Source: Acidobacteria bacterium Ga0077534 (GTDB lineage Bacteria; Acidobacteriota; Blastocatellia; Pyrinomonadales; Pyrinomonadaceae). From it: a stretch of 64,000 nucleotides of DNA. Location: assembly GCA_001464455.1 (NCBI GenBank), contig LNEI01000018.1, forward strand, positions 310,001 through 374,000, written 5' to 3'. Below the pieces are notes generated by a model that worked only from the letters and a program-made list of their open reading frames with translations, did no database searches and had not been told where the DNA came from. The number at the start of each line of letters is the position of its first letter. Positions within the stretch are counted from its first letter, which is position 1. The position numbers and the translations under genes are program-made. Below are positions 991 through 38,005 of the stretch, one piece after another.

Positions 991-1171
991 CATGTACTCG
1001 ATACGCAAGCCGCGAATTCAATTTGCGGCTTCCTTGCGGCTTCGCGGCTTTGCGGGAGACCGCCGTTTCCCTCCCGCCGCAGCCGCAAAGGGCGCAAAGG
1101 ATCCGCAAAGAAGCATCTCGAACACCAGGCACAGTAGTGCACCACAGCTTTTAAGAAAATCCCGTTTTAGC
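991..1171. other. Non-coding spacer with degenerate GC-rich palindromic remnants
   Basis: No supported gene. The stretch contains repeated cgcggctt/gcggcttc and gcaaagg words in both orientations (about 1008-1110), resembling decayed copies of dispersed repeats. The promoter and repeat unit that follow are listed separately. Confidence 0.4.
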
Positions 1172-1200
1172 TTGACTTTTTGCACTCCTCGTGCTATCTT
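1172..1200 (+). promoter_or_regulatory. Sigma-70-type promoter upstream of the synthetase gene
   Basis: TTGACT (1172-1177), a 17-bp spacer and TATCTT (1195-1200) give a good housekeeping match. It starts a leader of about 250 nt that contains the GTTCCAC hairpin unit. The promoter upstream of nadB (36044-36072) has the same 17-bp spacing and is followed by the same unit. Confidence 0.6.
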
Positions 1201-1300: not shown

Positions 1301-1406
1301 CGTTCCACTTCCGGTGTCGCGATTTTACAAGGTGGAACGATTTTTCTCGCTAACCACAATGCAGTCAATGAGTTACCCGTTCCACTTTCAGCACGGAAGT
1401 GGAACG
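1301..1406 (+). repeat. Leader repeat unit with alternating CGTTCCAC / GTGGAACG segments (copy A)
   Basis: Complementary segments occur at 1301-1310 (CGTTCCACTT), 1332-1339 (GTGGAACG, followed by ATTTTT), 1378-1387 (CGTTCCACTT) and 1397-1406 (AAGTGGAACG, followed by ATTTTA). Neighbouring segments can pair in mutually exclusive ways. Spacings of 46 nt from 1332 to 1378 and 19 nt from 1378 to 1397 are identical to those of copy B upstream of nadB (36207, 36253, 36272). The unit lies in the 5' leader of the synthetase gene. Confidence 0.65.
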
Positions 1407-1715
1407 ATTTTACGCGTTTAGTTCGTGGGACTTTATAGACGCATGAGGTAAAATCGATGGAAATGAACGACACAAACCTCCTAGAAGACCAACCCATCGC
1501 CTGGACCCCAACGCCCGAAGTCATCGAACGCGCGAGGCTGACCCAATTCATGAAACAAGTCGGCGTCTCGACCTGGGACGAGTTGTATGCGTATTCGATA
1601 AACGATGTCGAGAAGTTTACGGAAGAGGTTCTGAAGTTTCTCGACATAAAATTCGACCCGCCGTATGAGAAATTGCTCGATACGTCGGGCGGGATCGAGT
1701 TTCCGGTCTGGTTTC

Positions 1716-35651: not shown

Positions 35652-36043
35652 GTAGGGCATCAGTTTGAGAACACCTCTACCTAATACTCAGCGAACTCTG
35701 CGTCTGCCCTCTGGGAACTCTGCGAGAAATGTCCTCGTAACGCCGCAAACGACCGCACCCCGCAGGGTACGCCGAGCAGGGCCTGAGATCGCGGAAACGA
35801 CCTGGCTATGGGTAGTGGGCTACTTTTACATTCTTCGCCGTGAAGCGGCGAAAGACAATAGCCAGGTGCGGAGCTTCTGGTTGTCGGAAACCAAGGTGCT
35901 AGTGCGGTGAAGCCGCACCAGCCTTATCTTGCCGCACCTTCGACGCGGCGAGTTCATATCGCATCTGACCAGAAGCTTCGCATCGAGCTGTCTTCTCTGG
36001 CCGCTCTGCTGCCTGATCTTTTCAAAATGATCTACTCCCAGAC
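35652..36043. other. Gene-free spacer
   Basis: No gene is supported. Short open frames here lack ribosome sites. The stretch holds small palindromes such as CTTCGCCGTGAAGCGGCGAAAG (about 35836) and GGTGAAGCCGCACC (about 35907), plus GACCAGAAGCTTCGC words in both orientations. The promoter and leader repeat that follow are listed separately. Confidence 0.4.
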
Positions 36044-36072
36044 TTGACAGTGTGTTGCATCTGTGTTACGAT
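36044..36072 (+). promoter_or_regulatory. Sigma-70-type promoter upstream of nadB
   Basis: TTGACA (36044-36049), a 17-bp spacer and TACGAT (36067-36072). The -35 is a perfect consensus. The leader to nadB is about 360 nt and contains the GTTCCAC repeat unit. Confidence 0.65.
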
Positions 36073-36173
36073 TCTTCAGTAATGCAAATGCTCAATTTCT
36101 TTTCCCGCCTACGCAGGATGGCAACCGATTGCAAGTCGTCTATGAATGGACTCGCTCCCAAAGCGTCAACCTC

Positions 36174-36394
36174 AAGTGGAACGGAACAAGGTATGTATTC
36201 TTACAAGTGGAACGATTTTTCGCCACAACCCATATTATTTGCAACAGTTAACCGTTCCACTTTCAGCACGCAAGTGGAACGAGCTCAAGCGGGACGATCG
36301 CTTTTGTAAATTTTGCAAGCGAGACGATCTTTTGCCGTAACCTACAATGACTGCAACGGTTAGGCCGTCTCACTTTCAGCAGCGAAGTGATACG
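36174..36394 (+). repeat. Leader repeat unit with alternating GTGGAACG / CGTTCCAC segments (copies B and C)
   Basis: Copy B has AAGTGGAACG (36174), GTGGAACG (36207), CGTTCCACTT (36253) and AAGTGGAACG (36272). Copy C is diverged: GCGAGACG (36319), CGTCTCACTT (36366) and AAGTGATACG (36385). The spacings 46 or 47 nt and 19 nt are kept in all copies, including copy A at 1301-1406. In copy C, changes on one side are matched by changes on the other (GG/CC to AG/CT type), as expected if base pairing is selected. Confidence 0.7.
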
Positions 36395-36439
36395 GTTGAG
36401 GATAGTGATAATTCGCCCAATTTTGTTAGAATCTCGTTG

Positions 36440-38005
36440 ATGTCCTTGAAAACAGACTTTATCGTTATCGGTAGCGGAGTTGCAGGATTGAGGGCTTCGA
36501 TCGAATTGGCTTCGACCGGGGCACGTGTTTCGGTTCTGACTAAAGACAAAGCCAGCGAATCTAATACGGAGTACGCCCAAGGCGGCGTCGCAGTCGTTCT
36601 GTCCGAGGACGATAATGCCGAACTTCACGAGGATGACACACTCGTCGCAGGAGCCGGGCTTTGCGACAAGCGAGCCGTCGAAACACTTGTAACTGAAGGC
36701 ACGGGCTACATAAAACAGCTTATCGAATGGGGCACCGAATTTGACCGCGAAGGCGGTAAGTTGATGATGGGCCAGGAGGCGGCGCACTCTCGCCGACGCA
36801 TCCTGCATGCTCACGGAGATTCGACCGGAGCCGAGTTTGTTCGTTCATTGATCGCTCGTGCTGGGCAGGAAAAAGCGATAAACCTCACGCCGTTTGCAAA
36901 TACAGAAGGCCTTATCGTGAGCGATGGCCGCTGTGTGGGTGTACGATTTCTCGACCCGATACTTCGAGCCCCGCGTGAGATCTACGCGAAGGGCGTGATC
37001 ATGTGCACCGGCGGGGCAGGCCAACTCTATTTGCACACGACCAACCCGCCCGTCGCGACTGGCGATGGGATGGCGATGGCATACTTTGCCGGGGCCGAGA
37101 TGGCCGATATGGAGTTCGTTCAGTTTCATCCGACGGCCCTGAGCATCGAAAACGCCCCGCGTTTCCTCCTGACCGAAGCCATGCGAGGCGAAGGTGGCCA
37201 GCTCAAAAACAAGTATGGAGAACGCTTCATGCCGCGATACGACGAACGCATGGAACTCGCGCCGCGTGACATCGTCTCCCGCTCGATCGTCGCCGAAATG
37301 CGGCGGACCGGTACGCGAAGCGTCTATCTCGACATGACGGCGATGGACGAGGAGTTTCTAAAACATCGGTTCCCGAAGATCTACGAAACCTGTCTCGCTT
37401 ACGGCCTGAACATCGCGAAAGACATGCTTCCCGTCTCGCCGGCCTCGCATTACTGCATGGGCGGCATCCGCACGGATCTATGGGGCCGCAGTTCGGTTCC
37501 GGGACTTTATGCGGCTGGCGAGGTGACCTGTACCGGAGTTCACGGAGCGAATCGCCTCGCGTCGAATTCACTGCTCGAAGGGCTCGTATTCGGAGCACGG
37601 GCCGGAAAGGCGGCCGCGGAAGACAGTCTCAAAGTTCGAGTCTCAGATGTAAGATCCGAGGCATCTCGACTGGAATCGATAAATGCCGAAGCGGGCATCG
37701 CGACGGCCGTTCGCAAACGTATCAAACGAGTGATGTGGGAACGCGTGGGTATTCTGCGAGACCGTGATTCACTTAAACGCGCCTTGAAAGAGTTCACGCA
37801 GATCGCTTCAGGAAATCTTGGAACGTCGTCGCGAAATTTTGTCACACTGGCACAACTGGTCGCCACCGCAGCACTTTGGCGGGAGGAATCGCGGGGCGGA
37901 CACTATCGCACGGACTTTCCTGAGCAGGATGAAAAATGGCGCGTCCACTCCATACAGAAACTTGGAGAACAGATTTATGGAGCAGGCTCTATCAGCCAAA
38001 ACTGA
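36440..38005 (+). CDS. nadB: L-aspartate oxidase
   Basis: A 521-residue flavoenzyme that oxidises aspartate to iminoaspartate, the first step of NAD synthesis from aspartate. The FAD motif is VIGSGVAGLRAS at the N-terminus. EYAQGGVAVVLS, RRRILHAHGDSTGAE, ADMEFVQFHPTA and the HYCMGGIRTD block are NadB/SdhA hallmarks. ATG 36440 begins this domain; codons upstream to 36347 belong to the leader. It is followed 46 bp later by an acyl-CoA ligase gene. nadA and nadC are not in the window. Confidence 0.93.
   Translation: MSLKTDFIVIGSGVAGLRASIELASTGARVSVLTKDKASESNTEYAQGGVAVVLSEDDNAELHEDDTLVAGAGLCDKRAVETLVTEGTGYIKQLIEWGTEFDREGGKLMMGQEAAHSRRRILHAHGDSTGAEFVRSLIARAGQEKAINLTPFANTEGLIVSDGRCVGVRFLDPILRAPREIYAKGVIMCTGGAGQLYLHTTNPPVATGDGMAMAYFAGAEMADMEFVQFHPTALSIENAPRFLLTEAMRGEGGQLKNKYGERFMPRYDERMELAPRDIVSRSIVAEMRRTGTRSVYLDMTAMDEEFLKHRFPKIYETCLAYGLNIAKDMLPVSPASHYCMGGIRTDLWGRSSVPGLYAAGEVTCTGVHGANRLASNSLLEGLVFGARAGKAAAEDSLKVRVSDVRSEASRLESINAEAGIATAVRKRIKRVMWERVGILRDRDSLKRALKEFTQIASGNLGTSSRNFVTLAQLVATAALWREESRGGHYRTDFPEQDEKWRVHSIQKLGEQIYGAGSISQN

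Follow-up and report, generated by a model that had tools for sequence, protein, structure and literature searches.

A dispersed family of four-arm structured repeats, seen so far in one genus of Acidobacteria, with two units upstream of nadB

The window analysed here is a 64,000-nucleotide stretch of contig LNEI01000018.1 (positions 310,001 to 374,000) from Acidobacteria bacterium Ga0077534, hereafter G000. It contains three units of one repeat family, whose coordinates are collected in Table 1. Two of them, modules B and C, stand in tandem upstream of nadB and on its strand, ending 43 nt before the gene; the third, copy A, lies at about 1.3 kb, before an AMP-binding (acs-like) gene. A module of the family has four arms in the order 0(-), 1(+), 2(-), 3(+) around a core and spans about 125 nt. 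The sequence-only reading had reported the tandem units before nadB, with GCGAGACG/CGTCTCAC paired at 7 of 8 positions, AAGTGATACG/CGTCTCACTT paired at 9 of 10, and a constant spacing, and each of these details is confirmed: the step from arm 2 to arm 3 is 19 nt in modules B and C alike. The interval that it singled out begins at 36044, inside the promoter-like box at 36043-36072. Folded alone, copy B forms the arm 2-arm 3 hairpin and scores above shuffled sequences (z -3.37); copy C alone does not exceed its shuffles (z -0.40). Because arm 0 of module B is direct rather than inverted, this module has no hairpin between arms 0 and 1.

Table 1. Positions in the window of the three repeat units and of the features around them.
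Feature	Position	Strand	Remarks
Promoter-like box of copy A	1171..1200	+	CTTGAC-18-TATCTT
Arm 0 of copy A	1301..1310	+	CGTTCCACTT; inverted; pairs with arm 1
Copy A, single W module	1327..1409	+	covariance-model E 6.0e-15
Copy A, arms 1, 2 and 3	1330-1339, 1378-1387, 1397-1406	+	
Promoter-like box, nadB-side locus	36043..36072	+	CTTGAC-18-TACGAT
Arm 0 of module B	36174..36183	+	AAGTGGAACG; direct
Module B, type W	36202..36284	+	covariance-model E 3.4e-17
Module B, arms 1, 2 and 3	36205-36214, 36253-36262, 36272-36281	+	core between arms 1 and 2; loop TCAGCANNN between arms 2 and 3
Arm 0 of module C	36287..36296	+	AAGCGGGACG; direct
Module C, type S	36314..36397	+	covariance-model E 2.1e-16
Module C, arms 1, 2 and 3	36317-36326, 36366-36375, 36385-36394	+	core between arms 1 and 2; loop between arms 2 and 3
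Extended -10-like box of nadB	36424..36432	+	TGTTAGAAT; 8 nt before the ATG at 36440, 3' of both modules
nadB CDS	36440..38005	+	L-aspartate oxidase by name; FAD_binding_2; start by homology; outside the element

The -10-like box of nadB recurs in relatives: by eye, TGNTANANT is found 8-10 nt before the nadB ATG in 13 of 14 aligned genomes, and the strict form TTTGNTA in 8 of 14. Because this box lies between the units and the ATG, a transcript that begins from it would not include them. The longest open reading frame of nadB opens inside module C, at 36347, while homology places the start at 36440; automatic annotation may therefore swallow the module (36347-36439).

The pattern of the arm 2-arm 3 hairpin occurs at 33 sites in the 4.2-Mb genome, compared with a single site for a reversed control pattern; the 33 include at least one chance hit in other sequence, at C18:191697. 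A covariance model built on 30 copies, with units counted at E <= 1e-10, identifies 36 units (the training copies and six more) at 22 loci, namely 14 tandem pairs and 8 singles, and both nadB-side units and copy A are among them. The units before nadB are thus repeated in this genome far beyond chance. Two arm types occur in G000, W (GTGGAACG/CGTTCCAC) and S (GTGAGACG/CGTCTCAC), which share a fixed frame, GT..CA/TG..AC, and vary at the two central bases. Most units have an arm 0 upstream, mostly inverted and in some cases direct, the nadB copy being among the latter. Rfam returned nothing at threshold, and below it scattered low-scoring matches alone. A search of open-access journal literature found no paper on the repeat family. 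In a phage collection, 60 stretches carried the S hairpin pattern, none of them with two of three further filter features.

Most loci in G000 carry a promoter-like box. A search of the 200 nt upstream of each locus for CTTGAC-N-TANNNT, with at most one deviation, finds it in 18 of 22 loci and in 7 of 190 flank pieces, and 12 of 22 loci, but none of the 190 background pieces, contain a boxA-like sequence that departs from GATCTTTGAAAAT at two positions or fewer; both patterns were derived from these same loci, so that the figures measure enrichment and do not amount to a blind test. A similar promoter and a boxA, GATATTTGAAAAC, are found in the rRNA leader of G000. The likeness to rRNA and other boxA-bearing untranslated transcripts lies in this succession of a promoter and then a boxA, close to that of the genome's own rRNA leader; the repeat elements differ in being short, dispersed and variable, and in containing no rRNA. 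The nadB copy and its sister on contig C11 have the promoter-like box and no good boxA, and the box itself is missing at L006 and L007, which are duplicated copies, and at L023. In seven other genomes a boxA-like site is present within 3/14 mismatches at 30 of 43 loci, compared with 4 of 94 background pieces (G004 2/2, G008 2/2, G031 5/8, G111 5/5, G096 4/4, G006 at least 11/18, G104 1/4); G104 mostly lacks it, with 3 to 7 mismatches. The 18 copies in G006 can be aligned from the promoter as far as arm 3, beyond which their similarity ends; in order, the aligned part holds boxA, a core, hairpin 0-1, another core and hairpin 2-3. No conserved terminator was recognised by eye. At the G006 loci L130-L147 an inverted repeat with an operator-like look, GTTGCG(T)...ACGCAAC, surrounds the -35 box, and in the other genomes many of the family's promoters also contain GTTGCA/TGCAAC words.

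The sequence-only reading took the units for a nadB leader under the control of NAD or tryptophan. On that account they would form a cis-acting riboswitch or attenuator in the leader of nadB (and of acs), sensing NAD or a related signal. Their position upstream of nadB, on its strand and downstream of a promoter-like box, agrees with such a role, as does the existence of alternative pairings, and the called downstream neighbour has the same orientation at 11 of 19 loci in G000. The remaining 8 of 19 are opposite, however, and across all genomes the downstream gene points in the same direction at 22 of 40 loci and in the opposite direction at 18 of 40, counts that depend on in-house ORF calling and on element limits set by hand. 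The neighbours are also functionally unrelated: among the 75 proteins scanned, out of 81 listed neighbours, the commonest Pfam family accounts for two. NadB is present in all 21 genomes of the genus that were searched, and the sequence upstream of nadB in 20 relatives, 18 of them readable (L079 and L085 are out of register, owing to contig ends or a partial match), showed no unit, nor did the models match at nadB in the scans of relatives, class or phylum.

No unit position is clearly shared between species. msrA adjoins a unit in both G000 and G006, though not on the same side; a C-terminal domain next to a unit has matches in G000 and G004, at different distances; and one G000 reading frame that overlaps units has a weak match in G004.

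The closest known regulator to compare is the NAD+-I (nadA motif) riboswitch, outlined in PMC7297122 as two similar tandem stem-loop domains with a conserved ACANCCCC bulge, found in Acidobacteria with an NAD biosynthesis gene. Two similar tandem units, the phylum and a nearby NAD biosynthesis gene are common to both. Rather than keeping to the 5' UTR of NAD biosynthesis genes across species, the repeat family adjoins many unrelated genes in mixed orientation and is absent from nadB in relatives. The Rfam model of NAD+-I finds nothing in the window at the gathering threshold, nor in 35950-36500 at E <= 5, and other Rfam riboswitches likewise gave no match at threshold. By eye, copy B has ACAACCCA (7/8) in place of the bulge, while copy C and the consensus are without it. 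We therefore rejected a nadB riboswitch on the evidence of orientation, synteny and the -10-like box downstream of the units, and rate any cis-regulatory leader of this kind as highly improbable; neither the leader assignment nor the proposed NAD or tryptophan control is upheld. That the units happen to adjoin nadB and other genes is the best explanation of their positions.

Arm pairing was examined in 104 modules from eight genomes, counted from 157 model matches after removal of duplicate loci, opposite-strand shadows, one partial match and matches weaker than about E 2e-8 (including seven in G102, G108, G110 and G008); from some genomes the set takes part of the listed copies, for example 6 of 18 in G096, 4 of 10 in G104 and 10 of 24 in G111. 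Of the 104, 97 have complementary central dinucleotides in arms 1 and 2, and 96 in arms 2 and 3, and an arm 0 with intact frame complements arm 1 in 65 of 82 cases. Five classes of arm 2 dinucleotide make up the 104: CT (50), TC (40), CC (11), GC (2) and AC (1). In those seven weaker, more distant units, judged by eye, the dinucleotides of arms 2 and 3 are complementary in six, and arm 1 matches arm 2 in two; hairpin 2-3 is accordingly the steadiest part of the module.

The sequence-only reading had named independent variation of paired positions as what would refute it, and this was tested. The 30-copy alignment shows covariation at two column pairs only, which change together, and copies within one genome are related, so that such counts are not independent. 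Across genomes further covarying pairs and arm types appear, and in the cross-genome alignments the standard pairs lie above all 500 column shuffles. Paired positions thus did not vary independently among the 104 modules, and the claim of a conserved, covarying base-paired structure stands. The compensatory change ascribed to copy C needs one correction. Its pairing is kept, but its arms represent one of the two arm types found throughout the genome (GTGGAACG/GTGAGACG) and not a change peculiar to that copy. For the inner stem P2, adjacent to the core, within-species comparison in four genomes gave no covariation.

The arms allow two folds. In a 40-module alignment, with modules picked mostly for an inverted arm 0, hairpins 0-1 and 2-3 have 93.1% of cells paired, against 86.5% when shuffled and no more than 43.3% when slid, with both-sided changes at 10 of 20 pairs; the nested alternative, arms 0-3 enclosing 1-2, has 92.2% of cells paired and both-sided changes at 7 of 20 pairs. 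Folding alone places 19 of these 40 modules in the two-hairpin fold and 14 in the nested fold, and the mean energies, -36.4 and -34.7 kcal/mol respectively, make the two nearly isoenergetic. Mismatches do not favour either strand, with G.U and A.C counts of 19 and 9 in one alignment and 17 and 23 in another. The pair statistics are compatible with RNA helices or with a DNA cruciform, and it is from the promoter and boxA that we infer RNA helices.

Alternatively, the arms could form arrays of sites recognised by a DNA-binding protein that has at least two specificities. The hardly variable arm frame would suit such sites, and so would the occurrence of arm 0 in both orientations, with the same change in direct and in inverted arms. 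Stem extensions outside the frame also change on both sides, however, and what the codes GC and CC preserve is complementarity, not a single fixed site. There are also intermediates with one lagging arm: at loci in G111, arms 0, 1 and 2 now read GTGCCA/TGGCAC and arm 3 remains TGGAAC. We regard the binding-site reading as improbable.

Adjacent modules differ in their dinucleotide code in 34 of 34 cases from five genomes (G000 14, G031 12, G111 5, G096 2, G004 1). The tandem order in G000 is W-S at eight loci and S-W at six, and the presence of both orders makes simple inheritance of one dimer less likely. All neighbours were unlike in 1 of 200,000 permutations of the types in G000, a figure that is not a clean probability because the copies are related. 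Three-module loci of G031 have the order GTCCCA, GTTCCA, GTCTCA.

The repeat family is seen so far in a single genus of Acidobacteria and is patchy within it. The first model matched 3 of 29 relatives (G004, G006 and G008). A second, built from 61 units and used at E <= 0.001, found the family in 11 of 162 genomes of the class, our own included, all of them in one of 53 genera and three (G102, G108 and G110) with weak matches only; the phylum scan gave 5 of 396 genomes, from one of 210 genera. Dispersed palindromes with GTCTCACTTT...AAAGTGAGACA and GGTGAGACACAAA words were also seen at L172 and L179, in the Acidobacteria MAGs JAJEFG and JAJDVI. No boxA or promoter of the nadB-side family was seen with them, and they are possibly an unrelated repeat.

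Copies in G031 are 80-95% alike over 150-800 bp. In G000, window positions 35811-36281 match a stretch of contig C11 (L026:1054-1524) over 471 bp at 89.4% identity, and the similarity ends exactly at arm 3 of module B. This near-copy begins in a palindrome-rich region, with an inverted repeat at 35844-35881/35968-36005. Together with the unrelated flanks, it suggests that the family spread by duplication or mobility. Spread in the manner of a SINE, by reverse transcriptase, was considered and rejected, as RVT_1 has no match in G000; 4 of 14 genomes have it, three of the four without strong units.

Multiple dispersed copies, patchy occurrence within the genus, unrelated flanks and a near-copy that stops at an arm would also fit a REP/BIME- or MITE-like DNA repeat scattered through the genome, in which the hairpins act as DNA, in cruciform or single-stranded form, for a transposase and the promoter is incidental or serves mobility. 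The pair statistics allow DNA pairing, E. coli BIMEs likewise pair unlike palindrome types, and the likeness to REP/BIME elements with their RAYT extends to short dispersed intergenic palindromes and to Y1 genes in the genome. Y1 transposases have ten matches in G000, one of them on contig C12, roughly 0.5 kb from a tandemly duplicated pair of units. Ten other genomes of relatives have 7-21 Y1 genes each, however, seven of the ten without strong units, and one of the 75 neighbour proteins is a Y1 transposase. The number of Y1 genes does not track the repeat family in these relatives and is not distinguishing evidence on a cognate mover. Unsystematic inspection of a number of copies gave no sign of a target-site duplication, and REPs are not known to carry a promoter and boxA of their own. 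The four-arm module of about 125 nt, the promoter with boxA and the lack of a consistent Y1 neighbour set the family apart from REP/BIME elements, and we consider a DNA repeat of this type unlikely.

With some reserve, we favour reading the units as parts of structured RNA genes that are built of four-arm modules, are transcribed independently and form a dispersed family specific to the lineage; an arm code would avert mispairing between neighbours. The RNA genes are probably non-coding. The typical locus, which holds no recognised protein gene, would consist of its own promoter, a boxA of the rRNA type (an antiterminator site) and one to three modules. Transcription would start from the promoter-like box, on its strand, and boxA would keep RNA polymerase going through an untranslated, hairpin-rich transcript. 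Each module would fold into two hairpins, 0-1 and 2-3, or partly into the nested form, with the central two bases of the arms serving as a pairing code by which it folds with itself and not with its neighbour; where codes are unlike, a module's arm 1 would be kept from pairing with arm 2 of the module that follows. As to cellular role, we think that a selfish or RNA-decoy function is more likely than control of the next gene. A fuller version is tentative and, on balance, doubtful: mobile, self-transcribed RNA genes whose two-base code insulates tandem modules, each switching between near-isoenergetic folds, under selection for unlike neighbours.

BOX and similar small interspersed structured repeats come closest to the family in the way they work. 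The pneumococcal elements BOX, RUP and SPRITE are summarised in PMC3049150 as modular, hairpin-forming, intergenic and multi-copy, confined to close relatives, in some cases transcribed and thought to be parasitic. Compared by description, the nadB-side family is likewise a modular hairpin repeat, multi-copy, lineage-restricted and variable in position. It differs from them in the promoter-like box that most copies own, in the boxA that many have, and in the unlike complementary arm codes of neighbouring modules; the abstract on BOX (PMC3049150) mentions no such code. Dispersed structured repeats are already known; what would set this one apart is a promoter of its own, an antiterminator site and unlike codes in neighbours. 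If this reading is true, the family would be a natural example of tandem orthogonal RNA folding domains, and intermediates with one lagging arm open the order of compensatory changes to study. The nadB locus also serves as a warning, as two units before a metabolic gene can imitate a tandem riboswitch.

At L300 (G031 C10) an insert of about 400 bp lies in the arm 0-arm 1 loop of a W module, with a short CTTAAAGTGTTC-like direct repeat at both ends. In G000, C12:88959-90392 (L041) is a tandem duplication of about 660 bp, 93.5% identical, with one W module per copy, in which 10 of 17 core positions differ, compared with 34 of 644 positions elsewhere. This duplicate prompted the idea of a hypervariable guide or spacer in the core, which was set aside because the nadB/C11 duplicate retains its central core and the cores in G006 are conserved. 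A near-perfect inner palindrome in one copy of the C12 duplicate may be a sign of template switching.
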